Origin: Bacteroidota bacterium
GTDB lineage: Bacteria; Bacteroidota; Bacteroidia; Bacteroidales; FEN-979
Direction of reading: 5' to 3'
Assembly (NCBI GenBank): GCA_026391795.1
Contig: JAPLDI010000040.1
Location: 1 to 64,000, forward strand
Length of the DNA: 64,000 nucleotides
In this document: piece by piece, positions 2,943 to 61,013 of the stretch
Numbering within the stretch: position 1 is the first letter of the stretch
How the letters are laid out: each line of letters begins with the position of its first letter
The notes under the pieces: model-generated
What the model saw: only the letters and a program-made list of their open reading frames with translations
Told to the model about the DNA's origin: nothing
Database searches by the model: none
Program-made: the position numbers and the translations under genes

Positions 2943-4774
2943 TTAAAACCCCACTCTTACCCCGGCACTCACGGTATTCGTCCCTCCCTGGAACGAAGGG
3001 CTGTTGAATTGTACATCTCCTTTTTTCAGGCTGTTTTCATACGAAAGAAATACCGATGCATTCCCCGAAAGGGACCAGGATGAAAAGAGACAGAACGACC
3101 GGTTCTGCCAGGTCATATTCTGAAATACAGGGACGGTTGTCGGGTTGGGTTCGGTGGCATAGACGTAATTGTCGCCATGCCACGACCAGGTATAAGAGAG
3201 GGCAACGAGAAGACGGCTGAGCGGCCGGTAATCGAGCGAAAGATAAACCTCCCGGGAATTGTCGCGCAGGTAATTCCCGAAGTTGTACCCGTCTGACTCG
3301 AACGTGGTGATGATCACATTGTGCTGATATACCATCGGCAGTGTGCTCGTCCCTTCAGCCGTAAAGGAAAGATTTTGTATGGGGAATCCGGATAACCTGA
3401 AGCCTCCCTTCCAGCCCAGGAAATTATGTTCCTTGCTGCTGTAAACCCGCGACATCTTGAATTCATCCGCGAAGAGGGTCAGGTAGAGATGCAGGTGCCT
3501 GATCTGCCTCGAGCTGATATCGAGAAACATCTGCGAATTGGTTCCCCCGGTCAGCCCTGCCTCCGGGTTCATGGTATGGTCGACCGATTTGTAGAAAAGG
3601 AGGGGAATGGTATAGGCAAGTTCGAATTTATCGCCATAGATCACCGAATTTCCGAACGAGATGTTGAGATCCTTCCAGGGGATGAAGGTGACCAGGTTTG
3701 CCGTAAGGTATTTCTGGCGGTAAAACGTCTTTGTGCCGTCTCCTTCACTGAATGTACGGTTTGAATCGACCAGGTTTGATTGCAGCATCCCGCTGATGAA
3801 GCTGAATTCGATCCACTTTGCGGGTTTCACATGCAGGCGGATGTGAGGAAACGAAGGTGGCTTGCTGATAAAGATGTTGGCCCCGTTATAATTGTTGCCC
3901 CAGTTGATGCGGTCGCGGATGATGCCGAACGAGCCCCATTTCCATGAAGCCATCACCTGCCCGGTCCAGTCAAAATAGTCGCCGCCGCCACCGGAATAAG
4001 GGTTCCATCGCTGTCCGGGCTCAGGTGTGAAATAAACAGTATTGGCAAGCTGCTCCGACTGAAACCCCTTGCTGATCCCGAACGAAAACCCGATATGCCT
4101 TCCGATGTTGCCAAAAATGGCTGTTCCGATCTCGCTTTTGTTTATCGTACCGTATTCGTTGAATGAAAACTGTTCGTTGATCAGGGGAACCAGGGTTAGG
4201 GAAAATGGCAATTCTGTATTCACCTCACCCCCCGGCCCCCTCTCCTGAGGTGGGTTTTCCGTATTCACCTCACCCCCCGGCCCCCTCTCCTGAGGTGGGT
4301 TTTCCGTATTCACCTCACCCCCCGGCCCCCTCTCCTGAGGTGGTTTTTCCGTATTCACCTCACCGTATTCACCTCACCCCCCGGCCCCCTCTCCTGAGGT
4401 GGGGTTTCCGTATTCACCTCACCCCCCGGCCCCCTCTCCTGAGGGAGAGGGGGAGTGGAGAAGATGATAGAAATGGGATTGGCGGAAAAAGAGATGGGCT
4501 TTGAAGTCTTTGGAGAATACGTTTCAATATAAAATCTGAGTTCCTCTTTTTGCCTCCTGTTTAACTTGTCCAACTTGTCTTTAGCTTCAGTAAGTTTTTG
4601 ACGGATGAACGCACGTGAATATGGCTTTATCACCGAATTCAGCTCAATGACATGTTCCGATGCCAGTTCGTCCAGGAAATTCTCAATCTCCTTATTAGCC
4701 GGAGGAAGATAGATATCCTGCGAACAGAGGGAATGGGATGAAAATAGGAGAAGGATCAGGAGAAGATTACGCAT
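2943..4774 (-). pseudogene. Capsule-assembly Wzi-like outer-membrane protein split into two ORFs (4355-4774 and 2943-4358) by a frame change inside a 45-bp repeat array; may be phase-variable rather than dead
   Basis: N-terminal signal peptide ORF and C-terminal beta-rich ORF share the VNTENPPQERGPGGE repeat. Frame offset (416 nt) minus the 14-bp partial unit = 402 nt, divisible by 3. Confidence 0.65.
4216..4444. repeat. 45-bp tandem repeat, about 4.8 units plus a 14-bp partial unit at 4351-4364
   Basis: gtattcacctcaccccccggccccctctcctgaggtgggttttcc starts at 4216, 4261, 4306, 4365 and 4410; gtattcacctcacc alone at 4351-4364. Confidence 0.95.
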
Positions 4775-5891: not shown

Positions 5892-6108
5892 TGGTGAGAG
5901 GTGAAATGTGAGAAGTGAGATGTTGATGTGAGATGTGAGATGTGAGATGTGAGATGTGAAATAAATCCAGCATCCAGCATCCAGCATCCAGCATCCAGCA
6001 TCCAGCATCCAGCATCGCATCCATCATCCAGCATCGAGCATCCAGCATCCAGCATCCAGCATCCAGCATCCAGCATCCAGCATCCAGCATCGAGCATCCA
6101 GCATCCAG
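5892..6108. repeat. Heptanucleotide arrays: gtgagat family (5892-5960) then ccagcat family (5967-6108, ~20 units)
   Basis: Direct reading of (gatgtga)n and (ccagcat)n. Confidence 0.95.
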
Positions 6109-6111
6109 CAT

Positions 6112-8283
6112 CTACTGCCTGCTGCCTATTCCCTTTTTCCGAAAACGCTGGTAAAAGAACGAGAAGACAATCAGGAAAGCGCCGAGGAGGAAGAGAAGGA
6201 TGATCCTGCCTGCCTCTCCGAGGAACCCGAAATCATAGATCAGGATCTTGACCAGGGATGCCAGCAGCAATGCCACGGCGAGCTGCCGTATAAAGCGTTG
6301 CTTCCGGATAAGTGCCACGCTGATCAGTGCGACAGAAAAAATGATTCCGAGGATTGACCAGGGCAGATGGTTGTTATGGACAGCCATTTCGGAGACCGTG
6401 CCTCCTCCTGCAAAGCCAAAGAAGATCGTGAAATGATCATATTCAATGATTAATAGCGTGAGGCAGAGGCCGGTTATAAAAGCCTGCAGACTCTTCATCC
6501 TGACCCTCCTCTTCACCCAGGTTTTCCTCAGGCTGAAATAGAGGATGCTGGTAAGGAGAGGAAGTAAAGGAAACAGAAGCCAGTGTGAAAGGAAGCAGGA
6601 GGAGAAGATGCCGCCGTTCACCAGTCCTATATTGCGGATGGCAACCAGGGAATAGTTTACAAAAATAGGGTAGGACAAGAGTGTAAGTGCAGTAAACCCG
6701 GAGACCGGCATGAGCAGCACTGACTTCTGCCTGTCCAGTAACGGGAGAAGGAGGATCAGGAAGAGGCAGGTGAACCAGAACCAGCTCAGGAGAATGGCCT
6801 CCCCGATTGGTAAAAGCAGGGAGAAGAGGAAATGCCAGGTCCAGAATCCTGTGATATAGGCAAAGACGATCAAAAGGCTCTTCAGTACCATCCGGTACAT
6901 TCTTCGCGAAAACCATTTGGATGCTGATAATTCAAGCCTCTTGACTAGCTTGTAACTGAAGAAAAGCGCAAAGAGGGTAAAGGTCCCTGCCTGGAACCCG
7001 TTATAAAAAAGAGACACATCAAAGGGAATGGCTCCGGAAAAGAGACCGGGAAGATAGAAGAGGGTGCATTTATAAATGAATGTCGCTGTCATGACTGCAA
7101 CAAAAGCAACGGAAGCTGAAAGCGATAAACGATTCCGCGAATACTTCGAGTAGAGCAGCAGCAACACCGAAATGACCGATGAAAAGAGAATAATATAGTT
7201 CTGATGTGCCAGCAGCGGACAGACCAGGGCTGCGAGGACAAGTGTAAGAAGGAGGTAAGGGTTCCGGAAGAGGCCGGGATTGATCTTCGGTGAAAAATAG
7301 AGCAGTACGCTGTTGAACAGCACAAGAATGAGTATAAAGAGCCCCTGGAGTTCCGGGTGACCGTATTTCGAAAGCACCCATAGCACCGACCCTGCATAAA
7401 AAAGCGTGTTGACCAGCATCAGGATGAATGCAACCAGTTCCCAGGTGATATTTCGTTTGCTCAGGTTGATGACAAGTCCGGAGAGGAAAAAGGTTCCATA
7501 GAAAAGGGAGGAGATGATGATATAGGTTGAAACAAGATCGCCCGAATCGCGCATCACCATCCGGCGTATCCAGAAGACCGCTACAAACAGGATCGAGAGG
7601 AAGGCCTGGATATAAAACGGAACCAGCTTGCCTGTTTTAAAGCTGAGAAGGAGAACAATGCCTGTGAAAATCAGGAGGAAGAGAAAATCCGTAAAATAGT
7701 GCCACTGGTAATTATTTGTCAGGAAGAGGAGGGAAAAGTAAACCAGGATTACAGTCATCACTTGCAGGGATGCGTTCTTTAACCTGGTTGCATGGCAGAA
7801 GGGAAGGATGCACAATGCCAATGTCACGGCCATTGCCACCCAGAGGTTCGGGTAACAGGTTGCCGTCGAAATGAAATCGTAGCTGAGCACTTTGAGGTGA
7901 ACAAAGAAGATCCACAAGGTGCCGGTTAGGGCTAATATACGGGCAACCGCAGGATTCCGGTGGTACAGGAAAAACGGCACTGCCAGGAGGGCAAACCCCG
8001 GTAAGAGCCGGATCAGCACTTTCCAGCCGGCAAAGGGAAAGATGACATCCGCTCTTGTTTCTTCCCCGCCTCCGGATGAAAAGAAAGCCGTGATCGTTGA
8101 AAATAAGGATTCACCCGGCTTTGCCAGCCTCACCAGGTACACCGCCCCGGCAATAAAGAAGAGGATCCCCAGGATCCTGAAAAAATAGTTTGTGATGTAT
8201 TTTTCCAGTTTTCCGGAGGAAGCTCCGTTCCTCTTTCTGACTTTAGTGCGGTGCTTATGATGGTGGGGGTGGTCGGAGTTCAA
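6112..8283 (-). CDS. Large polytopic membrane protein of unknown function (723 aa)
   Basis: Many hydrophobic segments, long single ORF. Confidence 0.7.
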   Translation of the reverse strand: MNSDHPHHHKHRTKVRKRNGASSGKLEKYITNYFFRILGILFFIAGAVYLVRLAKPGESLFSTITAFFSSGGGEETRADVIFPFAGWKVLIRLLPGFALLAVPFFLYHRNPAVARILALTGTLWIFFVHLKVLSYDFISTATCYPNLWVAMAVTLALCILPFCHATRLKNASLQVMTVILVYFSLLFLTNNYQWHYFTDFLFLLIFTGIVLLLSFKTGKLVPFYIQAFLSILFVAVFWIRRMVMRDSGDLVSTYIIISSLFYGTFFLSGLVINLSKRNITWELVAFILMLVNTLFYAGSVLWVLSKYGHPELQGLFILILVLFNSVLLYFSPKINPGLFRNPYLLLTLVLAALVCPLLAHQNYIILFSSVISVLLLLYSKYSRNRLSLSASVAFVAVMTATFIYKCTLFYLPGLFSGAIPFDVSLFYNGFQAGTFTLFALFFSYKLVKRLELSASKWFSRRMYRMVLKSLLIVFAYITGFWTWHFLFSLLLPIGEAILLSWFWFTCLFLILLLPLLDRQKSVLLMPVSGFTALTLLSYPIFVNYSLVAIRNIGLVNGGIFSSCFLSHWLLFPLLPLLTSILYFSLRKTWVKRRVRMKSLQAFITGLCLTLLIIEYDHFTIFFGFAGGGTVSEMAVHNNHLPWSILGIIFSVALISVALIRKQRFIRQLAVALLLASLVKILIYDFGFLGEAGRIILLFLLGAFLIVFSFFYQRFRKKGIGSRQ

Positions 8284-8345
8284 GTGTTAAGTGTTAAGTG
8301 TTAAGAAATTTCGCATTTCGTTTTTCGCTATTCGCTTTTCGCTGT
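8284..8345. repeat. Heptanucleotide arrays gtgttaa and ttcgctt/ttcgcat
   Basis: gtgttaagtgttaagtgttaagaaatttcgcatttcgtttttcgctattcgcttttcgctg. Confidence 0.85.
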
Positions 8346-10177
8346 TTAATTTTGACTCTGTACAGCAAAACATCCCAGAGAAACAACGGGGCTGATATGA
8401 CGATCCGGGTGTAGAGCCTCACGGGATCCTTCAGAAAACGGGGGAGCCATTCCAGTCCGATTCCGATCCAGAAGGGGGAGGAGCGTTTCGTGGTTCCTGC
8501 ATAAAAATCAAATACCGCCCCGATGCCACAGATGATTCCGACGTTCAACTGATTCTTGTACCGGTAGGCCCATTTTTCCTGCTTTGGAGCTGTTAAGCCG
8601 ATGAAAAGAACTGGTGAGGTGGATACTGGATGCTGGATGCTGGATGCTGGATGTGTGTGAATTGGGTCTTGTGTATTGGGAAGGTTGTAAGAGGATGATG
8701 TTATTTCGCCATTTCGCCATTTCGCCATTTCGCTATTTACGGTATTAACCATTGCCCGGCTCTCTTCCTCTGTAAACTCTTCCTTGAATGGAGGTGAATA
8801 GAACCCTGCAGTGATGTTGGGGTATTCTTTTGAGAGGCGGAGGCGGATCAGGTCGAGGGTGTGTTGTGAAGCCCCGAGGTAGAAGCAGCAGCCATGTTCC
8901 TCATCCAGTTTCTTCAGCAGGTATTCATGGAGGTCAGCACCGGCAATCTTAGAGATCTTTTTTACCTTCAGGATCCGGGAGGCCATCACGATCCCCTGTC
9001 CGTCAGGGATCAGGATATCCGATCCTTCAAGCGCTGCTTTGAAGAGGGGGTCCTTTTTTGCCACGCAATAGGAGTGGGGGTTCATACAGTTGATGAGGAG
9101 AGGAGTTGGGATGGTTTTGACGGCTTCGATCGTGATGTGGGATGTGGGATGTGGGATGTGAGATGATGGTTCCGTAACGCGTGACGCGTGAAGCGTGACG
9201 CGAAGAATATTGTCGTCTAATTTTGTCTGGATGGTATAGCCCATCAGTTCTATTGAGCTTTCTTCAGCCGCAATGGTTTCTTCTGCGCTTATGGGCGGGT
9301 AGGAAACATTGAGATCATTTTTATCATGGTCCCATTCCAGGGTCGGAACGGTGGTCCAGTCGATGGTGCTGACGGCGGTTCTGAGGTCGGTGAATTCGAA
9401 CTCTGTCAGCCACTTTTCGAATTTTTTCCGGGCTCCTTTTAGTCCGACATAGGATTTGAAGGTCCGGATCGTTGAAAGTCCATCAACCCTGGGCTGGCCG
9501 GGATCAAAATCGCGGGGGTGGAAATAGGACATGATGTAGTCCGACCGTTTTGTAAGGTACCGGATCAGCGGATAGGGCATAAGCCGGAAATACCCGCCGC
9601 CGGAAAAGATAACCTTGTTCCCTGAAACAGAACTGTGGTTTACCGGGAATTCCCTGATCATTCCGGAGGGTAATTTTATCTTTGAGGGGGTTACTACCGG
9701 AAAACCGGGATAGCCTCCATGGGCGCGTTTTGCCGGGAAGATGGAGCAGTCGTTTTCAATCCCGCATTCGGCAAGGACCTCCAGTCCCCAGAAGGTCTCC
9801 TTTATGATCGAGAACCCGGGGGCACGGTACGACCTTACGGCTTTTCCTGTCACATCCTCGATGCTGGCAATTGCATCTTTGAGGGATTGTTTATAAGTGC
9901 CTGGTGTCAAACCGGGAACCAGCTGGTGCATGTTGGAGTGGCAGCCAACTTCGTAGCCAAGGTCTGCAACATTCCGGATCAGGTGCGGATACCGTCTTGC
10001 CATCCACCCCATGCAGAAGAAGGTGGCAGGCTGGTTGTGTTTCTGCAGCGTCTCGAGGATCCACTCCAGGTTGCCGGGGAAGCGGGCTTCAATCTTCTCC
10101 CAATCCTTCACATTTTCGGTTGAAGGATTTTCAAGGATATGAAACCATTCTTCAAGGTCGAAGGTAAGGATCCTCAT
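8294..10177 (-). CDS. Fusion of polysaccharide deacetylase (N-terminal) and WecG/TagA/CpsF glycosyltransferase (C-terminal)
   Basis: [14 protein letters not shown]...[17 protein letters not shown]...EVGCHSNMH; then [17 protein letters not shown]...[10 protein letters not shown]...[10 protein letters not shown]. Contains translated repeats. Confidence 0.85.
8624..8738. repeat. Composite repeat inside CDS: 68-bp ctggatg-family element (8624-8691) and 8-bp catttcgc array (8699-8738)
   Basis: 8631-8691 matches 12752-12812 with about 4 mismatches; ttatttcgccatttcgccatttcgccatttcgct. Confidence 0.9.
9134..9205. repeat. Heptanucleotide arrays inside CDS: gatgtgg family and cgcgtga family
   Basis: gatgtgggatgtgggatgtgggatgtgagatg; cgcgtgacgcgtgaagcgtgacgcg. 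Confidence 0.85.
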
Positions 10178-10764
10178 GCGCTGGTTTCTTTTTCTTTAAT
10201 TTCCCGGATCACCCTTGCAGGGCTTCCTGCCGCGACGGTCCATGCCGGAATATCTTTTGTGACGACCGATCCGGCTGCTACTACTGTGCCTTCACCGATA
10301 GTTACTCCCGGCATGATGATGCTTTCCATTCCAATAGCGCAACCTTTTTTCAGCACTATTTTCTCCTTAAGGTATTTTAGGTTGAAATAGTCATCTCCCA
10401 TGCGGTAATCAGTCAGATCTTTCCGGTGACACAAAAGCAGGGATCCTGTTGCAATATGAACATCATCTTCTATTTCGATCAGATGGGCGTTTCCTATATC
10501 AATCCATACGGAGTACCCGATGAAGACATCCTTTCCGACTTTAATACCCATCCATCTCCACAATTTCGGCCGGAGTTTGCGGTCATTCAGGGGTGCCAGG
10601 AGAACCGAATACATGCAATACTTTAAAAGGATGCTGTTCCTGTAGTTTCTTACAACTCTTTTCAAAGCGCTCCAGGCATTGATATCGCTGTATTCTCCTT
10701 CAGAAAATTTCATCCCCGCTTTTTTCAGGACTTTATAGGTGGTGCTGGTTTTTTCTTTTTCCAT
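10174..10764 (-). CDS. Hexapeptide-repeat (LbH) acyltransferase, WcaF/colanic acid acetyltransferase-like
   Basis: [15 protein letters not shown]...[16 protein letters not shown]...[46 protein letters not shown]. Confidence 0.85.
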
Positions 10765-10777
10765 AAACCCGGAATTG

Positions 10778-11045
10778 AATTCACCTCACCCCCCCCGCCC
10801 CCTCTCCTGAAAGGCGAGGGGGAGTGAGTTATAATTTTATTTATTCATTAGCGTCTTTGCGCCTTCGTGGTAAAAATTTTAAACCCCCTCCACCCCCGGC
10901 CTCTCTGTATGGCGCGCGTTTCCTAACGCGTGCCCACAACTATTTTCAATTCAATTCACCTCACCCCCCGGCCCCCTCTCCTGAAAGGCGAGGGGGAGTG
11001 AGTTATAATTTTATTTATTCATTAGCGTCTTTGCGCCTTTGCGGT
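10778..11045. repeat. Two ~88-bp direct copies of a G-rich hairpin repeat (10778-10870 and 10953-11045)
   Basis: Both read attcacctcaccccc..gccccctctcctgaaaggcgagggggagtgagttataattttatttattcattagcgtctttgcgcctt. Confidence 0.9.
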
Positions 11046-11774
11046 GAATAATGCGTTGAAATAGACCCGGAAAAACCATAAAAAAGGCAAAATAATCCTG
11101 CTGAAATTCCGGGGTTGCTGGGCGATCCGGAAAACCCATTCCAGTCCGGCCTTTTGCGCCCACAAAGGAGCCCGTTTCACCGTACCGGCCAGGTATTCAA
11201 ATGACAATCCCACCCCCACGCAGATCGTGCTTTTCAGCAAGGGCTGGAGCTTCTCCATCAGGAACTCCTGTTTCGGCGCTCCCAGCCCGACCCAGAAGAA
11301 GGTTGGGTTTAATGTGTTTATATCCGCAACCAGTTCTTTGATGTTGATCTTTTCAACCGGCTGAAAGGGAGGAGATACCGCCTTCTTAATGTCAATCCCC
11401 GGATAGCTTACGGAGATATTCTTTACAAGGTGTTCGATGGTCGCTGGTGTGCTGCCGTAGAAATAGTGGGAATAGTTTTCATTCAAAGAGATTGCAAAGA
11501 GGCTGATCATCAGATCCAGTCCGCTGACCCTCTTTACATTCTTGTATCCTGCCCGGTGTGCATACCATACCAGCGGCATTCCGTCGGGGAGAGTCATCAG
11601 GGAACCGTTTTGGATCCTCAGATATCCGGGGTTTTTGTTGGCAATGTAGGCTGTCCTGACGTTGGTGACGCAGATGTAGTTGTATGTTCCTTTTGTAATG
11701 GCAAGCCTGATAGTGTCAATACAGCCTGACAAATCAGTATTATTTATCTCTATTTTGCCAACTTTAAATCTCAA
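11022..11774 (-). CDS. WecG/TagA/CpsF family glycosyltransferase
   Basis: LPDGMPLVWYAHRAGYKNVKRVSGLDLM, FFWVGLGAPKQEFLMEKL, GVGLSFEYLAGTVKRAPLWAQKAGLEWVFRI. Confidence 0.9.
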   Translation of the reverse strand: MRFKVGKIEINNTDLSGCIDTIRLAITKGTYNYICVTNVRTAYIANKNPGYLRIQNGSLMTLPDGMPLVWYAHRAGYKNVKRVSGLDLMISLFAISLNENYSHYFYGSTPATIEHLVKNISVSYPGIDIKKAVSPPFQPVEKINIKELVADINTLNPTFFWVGLGAPKQEFLMEKLQPLLKSTICVGVGLSFEYLAGTVKRAPLWAQKAGLEWVFRIAQQPRNFSRIILPFLWFFRVYFNALFTAKAQRR

Positions 11775-11787
11775 GGATAGATTTTTT

Positions 11788-11868
11788 TACCACAACAGGC
11801 ACACTAGGGCACAATAGAAAATTATCTCTGTAAACTAATGTGCCCTATTGTGCCTACTGTGGTGAAGA
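11788..11868. repeat. Inverted repeat ccaca-aggcaca-agggcaca overlapping the 3' end of the next CDS
   Basis: taccacaacaggcacactagggcacaatag ... ctaatgtgccctattgtgcctactgtggtg. Confidence 0.85.
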
Positions 11869-13215
11869 TAAGCCCGCTACCTTGTAAACAGCTATCAGCT
11901 TCTTATAATACACCTCTGGCGAGTAGTGCGTTTCCAGTCTCTTCCTTCCGTTCTCTCCAAGCCTTGCCCTCAGCTCAGGATCATTCCAGAGCATCTCAAT
12001 CTTCTTTGCCAGATCTTCAGCATCTCCCGGGTTGAAGAGAAGCCCGTTGACCCCGTCTTCGATGATCTCGGGATACCCAGCCATCCTTGGAGCGATAACC
12101 GGGATCCCGGCCGCCATGGCCTCCAGGAACACCATGGGGAATCCTTCGTACGACCGGCTGGTAAAGACAAGAAAAGAAGCCTGGGTAAAGGCTTCTTCCA
12201 TCTCTTCTTTCGGCAGCTTCCCGGCCATTTCGATATTGGTGGGTATGGTCACCTTTGTTATGTAATCGGAAGAGCCTTTACCTGCAACCCGGAATGGAAT
12301 TCCGGGTAGTTTTGCCGCTGCCTTTGCCAGGATGTCAAATCCTTTCTGGGCGTTTATCCTTCCTGAAAAGAGCGCAAATCCCTGTTTCAGGCCCTGATGT
12401 TCTTTTGCAGAAGCCTTTAAAAAGTTCGGCAGTACGAAGCATTTCTCAGCCGGAAACCCGTTTTCAACAAGTTTGTTCTTCTGGAACTCCGTGAGGCAGA
12501 GAAAAGCATCGACATTATCCAGGTAGTATCTTTTCCTCCGGGCCCAGAAATTCCGGAGTGCGTATCCTGTACTTTTAAACAGGGAGCATTCACAATTCCG
12601 GGTGATGCATTTCCACTCTTTTCCCCCCGAACATTGTTCGCATATCTCATCATGGGTGAAGAACAGGCCGTTCGGGCAGATAAGCCGGTAGTTGTGGACG
12701 GTCATCACGATCTTTGGTGGTGAATTGGTGATCTGATGATTAGATGCTGGATGCTGGATGCTGGATGCTGGATGTGTGTGAATGGGGTCTTGTGTCTTGG
12801 GAATGTCGTAAGTTGGTTTGTTCTTGAGTTGGCGGGTTGATTTGATGACGGGTAAAATTGCAGGTGATATAAGGGGGTAAAGGTTATGTATATGGACAAT
12901 GTCTATTGGAAATGAGTCGGCAGTCGGCAGTCGGCAGTCGGCAGTCCCATTAGTGACAACCCCCGGCTTCTGACTTCTGACTTCTGATTTCTGACCTCCG
13001 ATAATCTCCCGGATCTCCCTGACCGCTCTCCTGTTATATACACCTGAAAGAAATCCATGCGCATGCCCGAAACGTAATCCTTTCAACTCAGAACTTCCGC
13101 GCATATAGGTCTGCACATCGTGTCCTCCTGCCTTCAACAGTGCAATCTGTGCATCCACAACAGCCTCTTCGCCGCTGTAATGGTTATATGAATTGTGGAT
13201 GAGGAGGATACGCAT
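11854..13215 (-). CDS. Glycosyltransferase family 4
   Basis: HNSYNHYSGEEAVVDAQ, FALFSGRINAQKGFDILAKAAA, EGFPMVFLEAMAAGIPVIAPRMAGYPEII. Two repeat-derived insertions in the N-terminal domain. Confidence 0.9.
   Translation of the reverse strand: MRILLIHNSYNHYSGEEAVVDAQIALLKAGGHDVQTYMRGSSELKGLRFGHAHGFLSGVYNRRAVREIREIIGGQKSEVRSQKPGVVTNGTADCRLPTADSFPIDIVHIHNLYPLISPAILPVIKSTRQLKNKPTYDIPKTQDPIHTHPASSIQHPASNHQITNSPPKIVMTVHNYRLICPNGLFFTHDEICEQCSGGKEWKCITRNCECSLFKSTGYALRNFWARRKRYYLDNVDAFLCLTEFQKNKLVENGFPAEKCFVLPNFLKASAKEHQGLKQGFALFSGRINAQKGFDILAKAAAKLPGIPFRVAGKGSSDYITKVTIPTNIEMAGKLPKEEMEEAFTQASFLVFTSRSYEGFPMVFLEAMAAGIPVIAPRMAGYPEIIEDGVNGLLFNPGDAEDLAKKIEMLWNDPELRARLGENGRKRLETHYSPEVYYKKLIAVYKVAGLSSPQ
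12745..13005. repeat. In-CDS repeats: 68-bp ctggatg element (12745-12812), cagtcgg array (12914-12945), cttctga array (12962-13005)
   Basis: Direct reading; translate as [18 protein letters not shown] and QKSEVRSQKPG...TADCRLPTAD. Confidence 0.9.
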
Positions 13216-13227
13216 TGGAGTTGGGTG

Positions 13228-13512
13228 TTATTCCCCCCTCTTACGTGTAAGAGGGGGGCAGGGGGGAGATACTTTTGAGTTTCGGTTTTGTTTTTTTATC
13301 CATCCCCCTTCCCCTTCCTTACAAGTAAGGAAGGGAAGGAGTTTTGTACTTTCCCCCTCTTACATGTAAGAGGGGGGCAGGGGGGAGATACTTTTGAGTT
13401 TCGGTTTTGTTTTTTTATCCATCCCCCTTCCCCTTCCTTACAAATAAGGAAGGGGAGGAGTTTTGTACTTTCCCCCTCTTACATGTAAGAGGGGGGCAGG
13501 GGGGAGATACTT
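13228..13512. repeat. 119-bp direct tandem repeat, >2 copies, each with palindromes (ccccctcttac-gt-gtaagaggggg and cccttccttac-aa-gtaaggaaggg)
   Basis: ttttgtttttttatccatccccctt starts at ~13288 and ~13407; a further partial copy at 13953-14012. Confidence 0.9.
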
Positions 13513-13523
13513 TTAGTCGCAAT

Positions 13524-42627: not shown

Positions 42628-43764
42628 TTAAAAGTTATTGCAAGCATTAACAATTGTTTTTACCTCTTCATTCGTTAATACAGTTCCTATGGGAATACTC
42701 AACACCTCACGGTGGATCTGTTCAGTAATGGGAAGCGAGGGATGGTTCCAACCCGAGTAGGCTTCCTGTTTGTGTGGTGGGATAGGGTAGTGGATCATAG
42801 TTTGTATATTATTTTCAGTTAGCCAAGCCTGGAGGCTGTCACGGTCATCAGCCCTTATTACGAAGAGGTGCCAGACATGCGATAAGAAGTCAGCAGTTGG
42901 CAATTCGCAGTCGGCAGTCAGCAGTCGGCAGTCAGCAGTCGGTAATATGATTTTGCTGTTCTGAATGTTTTTGATATAGTAATGGGCAATTTCAGAACGT
43001 CTTAGATTATCAACATCTAAACGTTTGAGCTTTACCCTAAGAACCGCTGCCTGGATCTCATCGAGGCGGGAGTTCAGTCCTTTGTAAAGATTGTGGTATT
43101 TCTCCTGGCTGCCGTAGTTCCCTAAAGCACGAATAACATCTGCCAGAGAATCATCATTCGTTGTAACGGCTCCTGCATCGCCCAGGGCCCCGAGATTTTT
43201 ACCAGGGTAAAAGCTATGGCCGGCGGCATGTCCGAGAGAGCCGGTTCTTTTATCACCATAATAACAGCCTTGAGCCTGGGCATTGTCCTCGATCAGTTTC
43301 AGGTTGTATTTATCCACAAGACGGTGAATCTCTGGATGCATTGCATTTTGTCCGTAAAGATGAACGATCATGATCCCGCGGGTCTTGTCCGTGATCTTCT
43401 CTTCAATCTTTAGCGGATCAATATTGTATGTATAAATATCAGGTTCAACCAGAACAGGTATAAGGCGGTTATCAGTAATTGCTAGAATTGAGGCGATGTA
43501 GGTATTGGCCGGGACAATGATCTCATCACCCTCTTCCATGATACCCAGTTCTATATACGCTTTCAGGATCAGTCGCAATGCATCCAGTCCGTTTGCAACC
43601 CCGATACAATGTTTACAACCGATAAATTCCGCATACTCCTTTTCAAATGCCTGGACCTCTTCGCCGAGGAGATACCATCCTGAACTCACGACCCTCTGAA
43701 CAGCTTGGCTGAGTTCCGGCTCAAAAGAAGCGTTAATGGCTTTAAGATCGAGGAATTTAATCAT
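42628..43764 (-). CDS. DegT/DnrJ/EryC1 aminotransferase (FdtB/QdtB-like)
   Basis: [75 protein letters not shown]. Contains a repeat-derived [17 protein letters not shown] segment. Confidence 0.92.
42896..42945. repeat. cagtcgg heptanucleotide array inside the aminotransferase CDS
   Basis: cagttggcaattcgcagtcggcagtcagcagtcggcagtcagcagtcgg. Confidence 0.9.
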
Positions 43765-48523: not shown

Positions 48524-49336
48524 TTATAATACAATCCAGGAGATCCAGGGGTCAATGTTCGACCGGTTCAGTTTGTAACTCTTCAGATCAAATGACTCCA
48601 GCATGGCAGTGGTCTCTCCGGGAAAATTCGGACAGTTAAGCTGGTCAAAACATACGATGGCCCCTTTACTCATCCGGGGAAGAAACAGATCGAGTGCTTT
48701 TTTAGTGGGTTCGTAGAGATCAAAATCGAGATACAACAAAGAGACCAGCAGGTGTTTGTTGTTCTTCAGATACTCTTCTCCCGTTTTTAAAAAGTCTCCT
48801 TTTATGAGTTCAATATTAGGGATATGGGATAAATGGCGTTCCTTATTTACCTTGTCAATCGATAACCTGAATTCCTCAATCCCGACACCTTTTAAATCAC
48901 CAATGCCCGGATTCTTGTCTGTATTGGCATCATGTTGGGAAACCGAATTAAAGCCCTCGAACGTATCGAACCCGACGATCTTGCGGGTATAATTGGTTGG
49001 TTCAAAGATATTTGATAACTGGGCCCAGGTAAAGAGACCGCCTCCGTTAAACACCCCGCATTCGATGATCACCCCGTTTGTGTTGATGATCCCTTTAAAG
49101 ATCTCATGCTTGCAGAGAAACCGTGCAATGCTGCGTTTGGTTGAAAACCGGGCGAAGGCTTCCAGTTTGTCAAATACAGGGGTTTCGCTTGCCTCAAATG
49201 CCGTTACAGCCAGTTCATACGATTCAAGATCATTCCTTGAATGCCTCTTTGCATTAAATCCGCTTTTTTCAATATCCATTTCTATTTCTTTTAGATTATT
49301 TGTTGGAATTCTGTCTTTAAGGAGCCACCTGATCAA
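48524..49336 (-). CDS. TylF/MycF-type (macrocin O-methyltransferase-like) SAM methyltransferase
   Basis: GVIIECGVFNGGGLFTWAQLS...KIVGFDTFEGFNSVS...LLYLDFDLYEPTKKALDLFLPRMSKGAIVCFDQL. Confidence 0.8.
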   Translation of the reverse strand: MIRWLLKDRIPTNNLKEIEMDIEKSGFNAKRHSRNDLESYELAVTAFEASETPVFDKLEAFARFSTKRSIARFLCKHEIFKGIINTNGVIIECGVFNGGGLFTWAQLSNIFEPTNYTRKIVGFDTFEGFNSVSQHDANTDKNPGIGDLKGVGIEEFRLSIDKVNKERHLSHIPNIELIKGDFLKTGEEYLKNNKHLLVSLLYLDFDLYEPTKKALDLFLPRMSKGAIVCFDQLNCPNFPGETTAMLESFDLKSYKLNRSNIDPWISWIVL

Positions 49337-49660
49337 CCGTTTTTATTTTCTCGCAGATTTTCGCAGATTAATCGCAAATTTCCGCAGAGAAATCATGAAC
49401 TAAGTTTAGTTGACGATATCCTATATGATCATACATCAAATGTTCTGCGCGAATCAGCGTTCTTTTAGATTATTTGTTGGAATTCTGTCTTTAAGGAGCC
49501 ACCTGATCAACTGTTTTTATTTTCTCGCAGATTTTCGCAGATTAATCGCAAATTTCCGCAGAAAAATCATGAACTAAGTTTAACAGACGATATCTCAAAT
49601 GACTTTATATCAGGTGTTCTGCGAGAATCAGCGGTAAATCTGCGAAAATCTGCGAGAACG
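49286..49660. repeat. 174-bp tandem duplication with cgcagat-type repeats, duplicating the 5' end of the TylF-like CDS
   Basis: ttagattatttgttggaattctgtctttaaggagccacctgatcaa at 49291 and 49465. Confidence 0.9.
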
Positions 49661-54451: not shown

Positions 54452-54478
54452 AGCGTGTTACAATTAATCAATAATAAT

Positions 54479-54573
54479 GTGATGTGAGATGTGAGATGTG
54501 AGATGTGAGATGTGAGATGTGAGATGTGAGATGTGAGAAAACCTAATGACTACTGCCGACTGCCGACTGCCGA
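54479..54573. repeat. Composite repeat copy 3 (no hairpin): gtgagat array, cctaatgacta-ctgccgactgccgactgccg
   Basis: Direct reading; same module order as copies 1 and 2. Confidence 0.95.
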
Positions 54574-55842
54574 TCATGTCAGAACCCTGTATGCGGGTAA
54601 CGCCCATAAGTTTTTTCCAAATTGCATAATAGTATCACCATTGTATAAAACAATTCCTCCCTGCCATGCATCCCCGGCTGCTTCGGCGAGTCGTTTCAGG
54701 TTGGTGAAATCAACATCGCTGACACTATCCCGGTACTTTACTTCAATGCCCGTGAGCCCTTTATTGGTTTCGAGGCAGAAATCCACCTCCATACCTGAAC
54801 GGGTCCTGTAATATGACATTGTGATGTTGCTGCCTGTAGTGCGGTTCCATTTCATCATTTCAGAAGCAATGAAATTTTCAAACAGATGCCCGTTCATCAC
54901 CCCGAACCCCATTCCTGACAAATGGCGGAGTATACCATTATCAAACCAATATACCTTGGGTGCTTTAATAAGCTGACTGGTAAGATTTTTCGAATAAACA
55001 GGCAGCAGAAAGGTTTGGTAGGAGAGTGTCAGATACTCCAGGTATCTGCGGGCGGTTTCAACGCCAATGCCTGCATCCCGCGAAAGTTCAGAATAGGAGA
55101 GGATCTGCGAAGCCCGGTTGGCTGTGAGTTGCTGGAATTTTTTAAAGGGTTTCAAATCGGTCAATCTTGCCAGATCGGCGAGATCTCGTTCCAGGTAAGC
55201 AATCGCATAGTTCTTAAGCCATACGATTTTCTTTTTTTCTTCGCGGAGATGAATCAGGGGAGGCATCCCGCCCCAGGTACAAAGCCATGATACCGCCTCT
55301 TTCATTTCTGTTGCTTCTTTCCCGAAAAGAGAAGCAGGAATTCTTTTTAACAAAGTATCCATGCCGGAGCCGGAAAGAATTTGTTCAAGTAACACCGGTT
55401 TCCGTTTCAAGGATTCCGGATCCGTCAATTCAGACAGGAGAAAGGGGAAAAGTTCATGAATTGTGACCCTGCCTGCAAGAGATTCGCGTACATTCTTCAG
55501 AAGCATGATCTGGGATGAACCGGTAAGGGCTGTAAATGACAAAGTTCCGGCATCGTAGCTGTATTTGATTTTTTCAATCAGAGCGGGAGCTTTCTGAATC
55601 TCATCAATCACTGCTTTCCCTATGTCACGGGACCATGTGAAGGTACTGACATCGGTAAGCTGATGCCGGTATTCCAAAGCATCGAGATTAAAGTAGGGCA
55701 AATCAGGGTATTTGCGTTGTACAAGTGTGGTCTTTCCTGTTTGCCGTGCTCCGGTGATCAGCACGATCCCGCGATCGGAAACCGTTGGAAGTTCAGACTC
55801 AATATATCGTATTACCTGTAAATTATCCCAAGCCATGAGCAA
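54574..55842 (-). CDS. AAA (AAA_14)/DUF4143 ATPase, copy 2
   Basis: GIVLITGARQTGKTTLVQRKYPDLPYFNLDALE; KAVIDEIQKAPALIEKIKYSYD; FENFIASEMMKWNRTTGSNITMSYYRTRSGMEVDFCLE. Confidence 0.93.
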   Translation of the reverse strand: MLMAWDNLQVIRYIESELPTVSDRGIVLITGARQTGKTTLVQRKYPDLPYFNLDALEYRHQLTDVSTFTWSRDIGKAVIDEIQKAPALIEKIKYSYDAGTLSFTALTGSSQIMLLKNVRESLAGRVTIHELFPFLLSELTDPESLKRKPVLLEQILSGSGMDTLLKRIPASLFGKEATEMKEAVSWLCTWGGMPPLIHLREEKKKIVWLKNYAIAYLERDLADLARLTDLKPFKKFQQLTANRASQILSYSELSRDAGIGVETARRYLEYLTLSYQTFLLPVYSKNLTSQLIKAPKVYWFDNGILRHLSGMGFGVMNGHLFENFIASEMMKWNRTTGSNITMSYYRTRSGMEVDFCLETNKGLTGIEVKYRDSVSDVDFTNLKRLAEAAGDAWQGGIVLYNGDTIMQFGKNLWALPAYRVLT

Positions 55843-55909: not shown

Positions 55910-56100
55910 CATCCATCTTCCATCCTCTCTCCAGCCTTCCTTTAGCTTAGCTCCAGCATAGCATCAGAAATGAGATGTGAGATGTGAGATGTGGGATGTG
56001 GGATGTGGGATGTGAGATGTGAGATGTGAGAATACCTAATGACTACTGCCGACTGCCGACTGCTGACTGCTGACTGCCGCTGCAACCAGCTTCACTGCTG
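55910..56100. repeat. Composite repeat copy 4 with a left half-hairpin (55932-55968), gtgagat/gtgggat array, cctaatgacta-ctgccgactg array
   Basis: cagccttcctttagcttagctccagcatagcatcaga then array; overlaps the 3' end of the next CDS. Confidence 0.93.
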
Positions 56101-57143: not shown

Positions 57144-58457
57144 CTAAAGACTCCAATATGTCAATTCCTTGATACTTTTCCTGAACACTCCCTTCACATC
57201 CACCAGCACCCCTTTCTCCGTCATTATGGATTTGAAATAGGCTTCATCAAGATCAAGATAGGGCTTATGGGCAACGGCAACGATCACCGCATCATACTTG
57301 TTAGTGAGAGGTGAGAGGTGAGAGGTGAGAGGAAGAAGTTCGAAGCCGTATTCGTGTTTTAACTCGTCGCTGTTGGCATAGGGATCCACGATGTCGACAT
57401 CCACCTTATACGATTTTAATTCGCTTATCAGGTCGGCAACCCTTGAGTTGCGGATGTCGCTCACATTCTCCTTGAAGGTAGCTCCCATCACCAGGACTTT
57501 CGACTCGATCACATTTTTCCCGGCATGAATGAGCTTTTTGACCGTCTGCTTGGCGATGTAAAATCCCATGGAATCGTTCACATAACGGCCGGCGTTGATC
57601 ACACGGGCATGGTAACGGTACTCTTCCGCTTTGTAGGTCAGGTAGTAAGGATCCACGCCGATGCAATGGCCGCCTACCAGTCCGGGATAAAACTTCAGGA
57701 AGTTCCATTTGGTTCCCGCTGCCTCAATCACATCATAGATGTTGATACCCATGCGGTTGAAGATGATCGAAAGCTCGTTCATGAAGGCGATGTTGATGTC
57801 GCGCTGGGAGTTCTCAATGATCTTCGCGGCTTCGGCTACCTTGATGGTCGGTGCCCGGTGCACACCCGGCTTTACAACCAGCTCATAAGTCTTCGCGATC
57901 ACCTCCAGCGATTCGTCATCGCATCCCGAAACGATCTTGATCACATTGGTAAGCATATGTTCCTTGTCGCCGGGGTTGATCCGTTCGGGTGAAAAGCCGA
58001 CCTTGAAATCCTCAATGAATTTCAATCCCGAGAGTTCTTCCAGTACCGGAACACAATCTTCTTCTGTTGCCCCGGGATAGACGGTGGATTCGTACACCAC
58101 ATAATCGCCTTTTTTCAGGATCTTCCCGACGGTTCGGGTGGCGGCGATCAGCGGACTCAGGTCGGGCAGGTTGTGCTTGTCGACCGGCGTGGGTACAGCG
58201 ACGATGTGGAAAGAGCATCCGCCCAGGTCGGCCGCGCTGGAGGTAAAGAGGATATCACATCCTTTAAATGCCTCGCCGGAAAGTTCTTCGCTGGGGTCGA
58301 TGCCGTTCCGCATCATCTCCACGCGGTCTTTCCGGATATCGAAACCGGTGACCGCAATTTTCTTTGCGAATTCAAGGGCAATGGGGAGACCGACATAGCC
58401 CAGTCCGATCACGGACAAGCGCGTCTCCTTTTTTAGTAGTTTCTCATAGAGGGTCAT
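57144..58457 (-). CDS. Nucleotide-sugar dehydrogenase (UDP-N-acetylhexosamine 6-dehydrogenase, TviB/WbpO-like)
   Basis: RLSVIGLGYVGLPIALEFAKK; GFSPERINPGDKEH; KVAEAAKIIENSQRDINIAFMNELS; PGLVGGHCIGVDPYYLTYKAEEY. Confidence 0.9.
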   Translation of the reverse strand: MTLYEKLLKKETRLSVIGLGYVGLPIALEFAKKIAVTGFDIRKDRVEMMRNGIDPSEELSGEAFKGCDILFTSSAADLGGCSFHIVAVPTPVDKHNLPDLSPLIAATRTVGKILKKGDYVVYESTVYPGATEEDCVPVLEELSGLKFIEDFKVGFSPERINPGDKEHMLTNVIKIVSGCDDESLEVIAKTYELVVKPGVHRAPTIKVAEAAKIIENSQRDINIAFMNELSIIFNRMGINIYDVIEAAGTKWNFLKFYPGLVGGHCIGVDPYYLTYKAEEYRYHARVINAGRYVNDSMGFYIAKQTVKKLIHAGKNVIESKVLVMGATFKENVSDIRNSRVADLISELKSYKVDVDIVDPYANSDELKHEYGFELLPLTSHLSPLTNKYDAVIVAVAHKPYLDLDEAYFKSIMTEKGVLVDVKGVFRKSIKELTYWSL

Positions 58458-59605: not shown

Positions 59606-60118
59606 TCACTTTTCACCTCTCACTTCTTCCAGAAGATGCGGAGATATAGTCAAAAGCAATACCTTGTCGATATGATCCAGCCTGATCATAACTTTTCGTT
59701 TTCCCGCATCGTTGATCAGTTCACCGGTCAGCTCCTTCAACGGGCCGGAGACCACTTTCACATGCATGCCCTGCTTCAGAACGGAGGAGACACAATCGAT
59801 CTCAGGGTTGCTGCCCATGATGAATTTCAGTGTCCGGATCTGGCTTTCAGGTATCACTGCAGGTTTCCCCGAAAACCAGATGTATTTCACGGCGCCGGGA
59901 GTATTCAGGACTTCGAAATAATTTTGTTTGGGAACATTCACAAAGACATAGGAGGAGATCAGGGGTTCATCCACCATTTTCTTCCGGTCTGACCACTGCC
60001 TGAGGGTTCTGCGCATCGGCAGATAGGCTTCGATCCCCTTCTCATTCAAACGATCGGCAAGCTTTTTCTCACTTCTGGGTTTCGTGTAAACGGCATACCA
60101 ATGTAACTGGTTCTCCAT
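59606..60118 (-). CDS. UpxY-family NusG-like transcription antiterminator
   Basis: WYAVYTKPRSEKKLADRLNEKGIEAYLPMRRTLRQWSDRKKMVDEPLISSYVFVNV; first gene of the locus. Confidence 0.92.
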   Translation of the reverse strand: MENQLHWYAVYTKPRSEKKLADRLNEKGIEAYLPMRRTLRQWSDRKKMVDEPLISSYVFVNVPKQNYFEVLNTPGAVKYIWFSGKPAVIPESQIRTLKFIMGSNPEIDCVSSVLKQGMHVKVVSGPLKELTGELINDAGKRKVMIRLDHIDKVLLLTISPHLLEEVRGEK

Positions 60119-60332: not shown

Positions 60333-60432
60333 CATCCCCCATCCCCCATCCCCCATCCCCCATCCCACATCTCACATCCCACATCCCCCATCCCACATCC
60401 CACATCCCACATCTCACATCTCACCTCTCACT
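60333..60432. repeat. catcccc/catccca/catctca heptanucleotide array, ~14 units
   Basis: cccccatcccccatcccccatcccacatctcacatcccacatcccccatcccacatcccac. Confidence 0.95.
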
Positions 60433-61013
60433 GCATCTTCTATGCAGGCGAGGATCTCCTCTTTTCCCGTTTTCTTCTCCGAGGAGGTCAGGATGAAGGG
60501 GGGATCGATGCTCAGGGAGGCCATGAGTGATTTCCGGTAGAGGGCCGGGTTGGCGGTATGGTGTGCTTTGGAGATCTTGTCGGCCTTGGTGAACAGAAGG
60601 ATAAAGGGGATCTGGTTCCGGCTGAGCCAGGCCATGAACTGCAGGTCGATATTCTGCGGCATATGGCGCGAATCGATGAGCAGAAAAGTGAGGCGGAGGT
60701 TATCGCGGCGAAGAAGGTAGCCTTCGATCATGGTTTCGATTTTCGCACTCTCCGCTTTCGAGGTTTTTGCAAAACCAAATCCCGGAAGGTCGACCAGGAA
60801 CCACGATTCATTGATCAGGAAATGGTTGATCAGCCGCGTCTTCCCGGGTGTGCCCGAGACTTTTGCCAGTGCCTTGATCCCGGTGATCATGTTGATGAGC
60901 GATGATTTCCCGACATTCGACCGGCCGATGAATGCAAATTCGGGAAGATCCGTTACCGGACAGATCTTCAGCGAAGGACTGCTTGCTATGAATGTTGCTG
61001 ACGAGATCTGCAT
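60414..61013 (-). CDS. engB: Ribosome biogenesis GTPase YihA/YsxC/EngB
   Basis: EFAFIGRSNVGKSSLINMITGIKALAKVSGTPGKTRLINHFLINESWFLVDLPGFGFAK; LLFTKADKISK. Confidence 0.95.
   Translation of the reverse strand: MQISSATFIASSPSLKICPVTDLPEFAFIGRSNVGKSSLINMITGIKALAKVSGTPGKTRLINHFLINESWFLVDLPGFGFAKTSKAESAKIETMIEGYLLRRDNLRLTFLLIDSRHMPQNIDLQFMAWLSRNQIPFILLFTKADKISKAHHTANPALYRKSLMASLSIDPPFILTSSEKKTGKEEILACIEDAVRGEM

Follow-up and report, generated by a model that had tools for sequence, protein, structure and literature searches.

Why do two glycosyltransferases of unrelated families carry almost the same 68 bp, read in the same frame? The two stretches lie in the first 64,000 nucleotides of contig JAPLDI010000040.1 (assembly GCA_026391795.1) of an uncultivated Bacteroidales bacterium, i.e., the whole stretch of DNA analyzed here and called the window below: one (positions 8624-8691) in a gene for a WecG/TagA-type enzyme, the other (12745-12812) in a gene for a GT4-type enzyme. 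A preliminary description had interpreted them as an element dispersed into protein-coding DNA with its frame kept. Our analyses make it likely that the shared stretch arose from heptanucleotide repeats that are dispersing in this lineage and that selection retains within genes only as stop-free, in-frame tracts in loops.

The near-identity of the two stretches was borne out, with 63 of 68 bases in common in a gap-free alignment, a likeness far beyond chance. On the minus strand, the two 68-mers share one reading frame, in which they encode a peptide starting with Y-[ND]-[LI]-P-[NK]. A search of the genome using positions 8600-8720 as the query retrieved the partner locus (93% over 70 bases; E value of 2e-23) and 142 additional matches, mostly shorter. 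About half of the 68-mer (~30 bp) is an array of the heptamer CTGGATG, which is followed by a TGTGTG junction and by a loosely 7-periodic tail (identity of 0.50-0.53 at lag 7 versus 0.26-0.39 at other lags). In other copies, the corresponding tail is a clearer heptad run, e.g., TGGGTATTGGGTGT. The end of the tail is private to the pair, whose match extends to query base 92, whereas all other matches in the genome end at or before base 84.

Agreement in frame is less telling. Because five of the six frames of the 68-mer are free of stops, two hosts sharing one frame represents about a 1-in-3 coincidence, given the orientation. Frame agreement was therefore rejected as a sign of coding function, and a discrete 68-bp element was discarded as well, as the shared sequence has no fixed ends. 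Of the dispersal initially proposed, the copying is supported by the private tail and a recurring junction described below, but a discrete, frame-keeping 68-bp element is not supported.

Inserts in the two glycosyltransferases

The in-frame presence of the sequence in two different glycosyltransferases was confirmed, the hosts being a deacetylase-WecG fusion (P0001) and a GT4 enzyme (P0002) (Table 1). The deacetylase and WecG/TagA parts fused in 8294-10177 are separate open reading frames (ORFs) in relatives such as G008, G056, G038, and G043.

In P0001, the Pfam match to WecG splits at residue 522. Alignment with TagA (7MPK/5WB4) pairs P0001 residue 483 with TagA residue 153 and residue 522 with TagA residue 156, and both the TagA structures and the WecG homologues pass from a helix to a strand across some 2-3 residues at this site. 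The insert is missing from the G043 homologue and from the window's own paralogue P0003. In a structure model of the WecG domain (four sequences), a segment with low predicted local distance difference test (pLDDT) scores, 186-212, lies between the helix and the strand at the insert. The two inserts of P0002 each precede a strand (DIVHIH and KIVMTVHNY), and neither is found in its homologues L062 or L063. These alignments with insert-free TagA/WecG and GT4 homologues support the view that the shared sequence was inserted into both hosts and is not ancestral.

Table 1. Repeat tracts, inserts, and host genes in the window
Feature	Position	Strand	Basis or remark
Host gene 1, P0001, 627 amino acids (aa): polysaccharide deacetylase + DUF3473 + WecG/TagA glycosyltransferase fusion	8294..10177	-	Pfam PF01522, PF11959, PF03808
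Insert in P0001 WecG domain, residues 482-520, ~38 aa	8618..8734	-	2-3 aa in TagA and homologues
CTGGATG array, 4.9 copies, within WecG-domain insert	8620..8653	+	Tandem Repeats Finder (TRF)
Tail TGTGTGAATTGGGTCTTGTGTATTGGGAAGG..., junction and weakly 7-periodic sequence	8654..8691	+	Lag-7 identity 0.53; full match only with 12745-12812
8-bp array ATTTCGCC, read MAKWRNGE, in the same WecG-domain insert	8703..8738	+	TRF
Second P0001 insert, residues ~323-349, GATGTGG and CGTGACG arrays	9129..9204	-	No counterpart in paralogue P0003
Heptamer tract (AAGTGTT, TTTCGCT) at 3' end of P0001 gene, including 8309-8343	8277..8346	-	Encodes C-terminal tail and stop
Host gene 2, P0002, 453 aa: GT4-type glycosyltransferase	11854..13215	-	Pfam PF00534, 8e-38
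P0002 insert 2, residues ~128-167, holds 68-mer, precedes strand KIVMTVHNYRLICP	12715..12834	-	L062/L063: only KK-HKIP or KK-NKIP
Second 68-mer: CTGGATG array (12743-12774), TGTGTG junction, tail	12745..12812	+	63/68 identity; TRF
P0002 insert 1, residues ~75-102, AGTCGGC and CTTCTGA arrays	12910..12993	-	TRF 12915-12946, 12967-12995; absent from homologues
AGTCGGC tract in frame in DegT/DnrJ/EryC1 aminotransferase	42888..42944	-	
Composite: GATGTGA array + ACCTAATGACTACTGCCG + ACTGCCG array	54475..54575	+	
Second copy of that composite, same junction, overlaps gene 3' end	55962..56081	+	
GTGAGAG tract in frame in UDP-sugar dehydrogenase, LLPLTSHLSPLT	57300..57338	-	Absent from closest homologues

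Heptanucleotide tracts in the genome and its relatives

Statistics were obtained from stretches of the genome totaling 472 kb, i.e., 12.5% of its 3.76 Mb. They contain 60 exact period-7 arrays, versus none in a Markov shuffle, composed of at least 22 different heptamers, and other short periods are at background level except period 8 (6 arrays). In the genome as a whole, the 21-mer (CTGGATG)3 has 186 forward and 189 reverse matches (375 overlapping matches), and its reversed control has none; the window alone holds dozens of heptamer arrays detected by TRF. Among 55 tracts located in the sample, which is 75-92% coding depending on the contig, 25 are intergenic, 17 lie at gene edges, and 13 lie inside genes, such that 42 of the 55 are outside genes or at their edges. 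The same few words recur at unlinked loci and in several species. The 68 bp are thus not a unit, the CTGGATG array being present hundreds of times in the genome and the private part of the tail only in the pair.

The distribution of (CTGGATG)3 is patchy: it occurs in genera g1, g2, and g4 of the family, but not in g3, g8, or most of the 396 genomes of the phylum. Two genomes from a different class of the phylum (G433 and G179; L139, L140, and L142-L152) contain it 33-36 times, spread over several contigs or at distant sites of a single contig, and the TGTGTG junction was not found in them. CTGGATG arrays, some of them inside ORFs, are also present in contigs classed as viral (L354-L368; 41-66% GC), and the word is thus not confined to the lineage. 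With the junction absent from the other class and the word present in viral contigs, no transfer was concluded; convergence or a wider vocabulary is possible. In another contig, a 54-base run of N (L114:3088-3141), probably an assembly gap or a masked stretch, occurs soon after a CTGGATG/GGTGTTA tract.

Counts for the junction GGATGCTGGATGTGTG are 18 in the genome, 8, 5, and 12 in three congeners, and 1 in another genus; none was found in 14 other genomes or in reversed controls. A composite with the junction ACCTAATGACT is present twice in the window. Copying of modules between loci is supported because the pair shares its private tail, GGATGCTGGATGTGTG recurs, and the composite of Table 1 is present in two copies. 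A REP-associated tyrosine transposase (RAYT/Y1), mobilizing the repeats in the manner of miniature inverted-repeat transposable elements (MITEs) or repetitive extragenic palindromes (REPs), was considered and rejected: PF01797 (Y1/RAYT), the one transposase family examined, does not track the repeats, being present with or without them and absent from the repeat-carrying genomes G007 and G017.

In the predicted genes of the 472 kb, 15 windows have a period of 7 and 2 a period of 8, with none for periods 4-6 and 9-12. Besides the pair, in-frame tracts were found in genes for the DNA repair and housekeeping protein Mfd, an M28 peptidase, a class II aldolase, a DegT aminotransferase, and a UDP-sugar dehydrogenase; an asparaginase also carries a tract. 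Those of the M28 peptidase and the aldolase are missing from homologues, some distant genomes being left out for the aldolase. In the UDP-sugar dehydrogenase, G000, the genome studied here, carries CACCTCT heptads, and G013, of another genus, carries a different heptad run (SPVTRHASRVS; lag-7 score of 19/21) in nearly the same loop. For proteins other than the modeled Mfd, alignments suggest that the inserts generally occupy short loops, mostly before a β-strand.

Mfd illustrates the turnover of words between species: congeners hold different heptamers in one loop, where an outgroup has no heptamers. This loop of this protein contains CATCTCA in G000, CACCACT in G004, some 10 units of AGTCGGC in G003, and a degenerate ACGCGTGAC-type sequence in G001, and nothing repetitive in G002, G005, and G012. 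In genus g8 (G011 and G015), the loop contains an 8-mer peptide, MVKWRNGEN or EIAKWRNSEN, a peptide word that the P0001 insert shares. Judged by Mfd, the nearest named genomes are Bacteroidales/Bacteroidetes metagenome-assembled genomes (MAGs), namely, fen_979 (L192), Chersky (L193), and Lake Pavin (L194 and L195). Among 80 named Mfd relatives, comprising Bacteroidota MAGs and isolates, lag-7 scores of 20-21/21 were obtained for the loop only in the congeners L193 and L194, compared with 14 for a third congener, L192, and at most 11 for the others. In a good AlphaFold model of the G003-type Mfd (L194), the repeat residues 413-446 cover a stretch with pLDDT below 50 (418-438), which sits between a well-predicted helix and a strand; the repeat peptide is thus predicted to be disordered in the one confident model.

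Tracts also coincide with the ends of proteins. Several genes end inside heptamer tracts that supply their last residues and stop codons (1839-1861, 59606-59618, 60414-60435, 56036-56080, and L120:1892-1910), with the terminal residues VRSEK, VRGEK, VRGEM, SQQSAVGSSH, and EKSER; they include NUDIX, NusG-like, GTPase, and TruB-like genes. A tract of ~220 bp (5894-6116; GTGAGAT, then ATCCAGC; 21 copies) extends into the start of a Glycos_transf_4 gene, whose listed start is probably repeat DNA, with the true start further in. Tracts of the TTTTCAT/TTCATTC type encode what appear to be the hydrophobic cores of signal peptides (FFILHSSFFI and FSFFIFHFSF; L120:11887-12702, L121:17143-18711, L130:12785-14665, and L136:13702-16617), suggesting that repeat DNA may be a source of secretion signals.

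Other tandem repeats in the window have longer units: 119 bp at 13234-13514 (with the hairpin CCCCCTCTTACATGTAAGAGGGGG), 45 bp at 4212-4364, 49 bp at 1-206, and 174 bp at 49286-49633. A duplicated intergenic stretch with TTAGCGTCTTTGCGCCTTYGYGGTG (10790-10870 and 10960-11050) represents a second kind of interspersed repeat.

Mechanism and alternative explanations

The analyses above show the repeat family, the copying of the pair and of the junction, insertion relative to homologues, turnover between species, and the position in loops. In the explanation that we favor, a tract is a run of one 7-base word, often joined at a recurring junction to a second, loosely 7-periodic run. Slippage may be the source of the 7-base periodicity, and template switching or ectopic copying may be the route by which tracts reach new sites as composite modules, where they would expand, shrink, or switch word. 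Most lie between genes or at gene ends. Within genes, the tracts are stop-free in the reading direction and occupy a short loop, mostly directly before a β-strand, and their total length is divisible by three, as any other length would destroy the gene. They would presumably be translated into a floppy, heptapeptide-like linker of nearly neutral effect. The frame would be kept by selection on the host genes, which removes frame-breaking insertions, and not by any peptide of the DNA's own.

Several observations weigh against this proposal. With orthologues that differ by at least 9-12% at the protein level, neither target-site duplications nor the exact ends of insertions could be defined. The tracts of the M28 peptidase and the aldolase are present in G000 and G003 but not in G001 or G004, the two genomes that lie nearer to G000 in the Mfd tree; this pattern requires clean loss or parallel gain and is not explained by simple decay. 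The Mfd inserts of four congeners share a downstream piece, LTxHDLQ (or VTRHELQ), because of which a single ancestral insertion with word turnover seems as likely as several insertions. The WecG model is weak (mean pLDDT of 57), and only the order of its elements matches the TagA alignment. Finally, the genome statistics cover 12.5% of the sequence and depend on in-house gene predictions.

Dispersal and rewriting might be the work of a dedicated templated or semi-templated copier of 7-base words, a possibility that we consider rather unlikely. Permissive loops would then be recurrent replacement sites, in keeping with the different words that congeners have in the same loop of one conserved protein and with clean losses, and some signal peptides and C-terminal tails would derive from the same words.

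It is also unlikely that the in-gene arrays are phase-variable contingency loci, in which slippage would add or remove units and, by changing the frame, turn the glycosyltransferases on or off. Genes for such enzymes are classical contingency loci, and heptamers act as contingency repeats in the Haemophilus hmw1A promoter. As 7 is not divisible by three, the gain or loss of one unit breaks the frame. Nevertheless, the arrays are not confined to surface or regulatory genes, since they are also found in the housekeeping gene for Mfd and in those for the M28 peptidase, the class II aldolase, and the asparaginase. Those inside genes are short here (3-5 units), tract remnants are degenerate, and no frame-broken allele was seen.

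Near-identical in-frame sequence in two unrelated enzymes also suggests a mobile peptide-coding element, discrete and with one conserved coding frame, that was transposed into genes. The Rickettsia palindromic elements (RPEs) set a precedent for in-frame insertion in unrelated genes (PMC10969869), yet an element of this kind is quite improbable here. Neither 68-mer forms a stable hairpin (folding z-scores of -1.0 and -1.8), by which a palindrome or RPE identity was rejected, and the missing palindrome, together with the lack of a fixed length or fixed ends, largely refutes this explanation. The openness of five of six frames, the unlike peptides that different words yield in the same loop of sister species, and the location of the majority of tracts outside genes argue in the same direction.

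Independent local slippage, with each array born in place from a chance 7-base near-repeat and no copying between loci, is very improbable. According to Mrazek (2007), as cited in PMC4679880, heptanucleotides are the commonest class of long simple repeats in most bacterial genomes, and slippage was proposed as their origin. However, the pair has a common 38-bp tail that is not part of the array, and the same junction found 18 times would have to be put down to convergence, such that this version is unlikely for the pair; the ACCTAATGACT composite also occurs twice, and the same few words are found at unlinked loci and in several species.

Misassembly or misbinning of repeats into genes is hardly credible: although this is a metagenome assembly with many arrays at contig ends, in-gene tracts occur at homologous positions in the separately published genomes L192, L193, and L194, and to either side of the tracts the ORFs stay in frame with conserved sequence.

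Relation to known repeats

Heptanucleotide repeats scattered over the genome have been described in cyanobacteria, Xanthomonas, Beggiatoaceae, and a few Bacteroidetes, and a slippage origin has been proposed (PMC4679880, PMC4692102). In 11 ORFs, MacGregor (2015) found stop-free repeats, for the most part in hypothetical proteins or at the ends of proteins (PMC4679880). The TAACTGA heptamers of marine Beggiatoaceae, Cyanobacteria, and Bacteroidetes resemble the present tracts in being dispersed 7-bp direct repeats, patchy across phyla and mostly intergenic, with few in ORFs, there only in the stop-free orientation, and with other heptamers in the same intergenic regions, in some Bacteroidetes (PMC4679880). 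They differ in having one main word, with near neighbors rare in Beggiatoaceae, and in that their ORF cases are mostly protein ends or hypothetical proteins (PMC4679880), whereas the tracts described here comprise many words, composites with recurring junctions, and inserts inside conserved enzyme domains, including Mfd.

The GGGNATC and GGGGA(C/T)T repeats of Xanthomonas and Nostoc (Rehm 2015, PMC4692102) and the cyanobacterial short tandemly repeated repetitive sequences (STRRs), such as the Calothrix heptanucleotides, are likewise few-unit tandem heptanucleotides spread genome-wide, with heterogeneous units, an intergenic preference, and positions that differ among related species. In contrast to the present tracts, they are described as G-quadruplex formers that are under-represented in coding DNA, and in-frame protein inserts are not described for them; CTGGATG and most words here lack G3 runs. 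The features of the STRR, TAACTGA, and GGGNATC types that were tested, i.e., an excess of 7-bp units, many mainly noncoding copies, and patchiness among relatives, were all found here.

RPEs are the nearest functional analogue, as repetitive DNA in frame in many unrelated genes and compatible with their function (PMC10969869). However, they are ~150-bp palindromes with a conserved peptide (PMC10969869), whereas the present tracts have no fixed length, are usually not palindromic, and encode different peptides at the same site; neither of the defining features tested, a palindrome and a single frame and peptide, was found. Contingency loci have in common with the tracts short tandem repeats in surface-glycan genes and a unit not divisible by three, but the present ones also lie in a housekeeping gene, are short and degenerate in genes, and yield no evidence of switching. 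A literature search, with subscription journals mostly outside its reach, returned no account of in-frame heptamer inserts in conserved Bacteroidota proteins. The present case adds to what is known of heptanucleotide repeats in three respects: they form inserts inside conserved domains, they are joined into composite modules, and their words change from one sister species to another.

Although few long simple repeats are as common in bacteria as the heptanucleotide ones, these have been treated as intergenic curiosities. In this lineage, one can follow how they enter the loops of conserved enzymes, change there, and disappear again, with an insertion state that can be scored gene by gene in congeneric genomes. 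Two questions thereby become accessible to testing, namely, the reason for a period of seven and the way in which the repeats spread without an evident transposase. If a dedicated copier does exist, it would generate diversity in loops specifically in this lineage. The findings also call for caution, as what looks like a functional loop insertion, tail, or even signal peptide in such proteins may be no more than repeat DNA.

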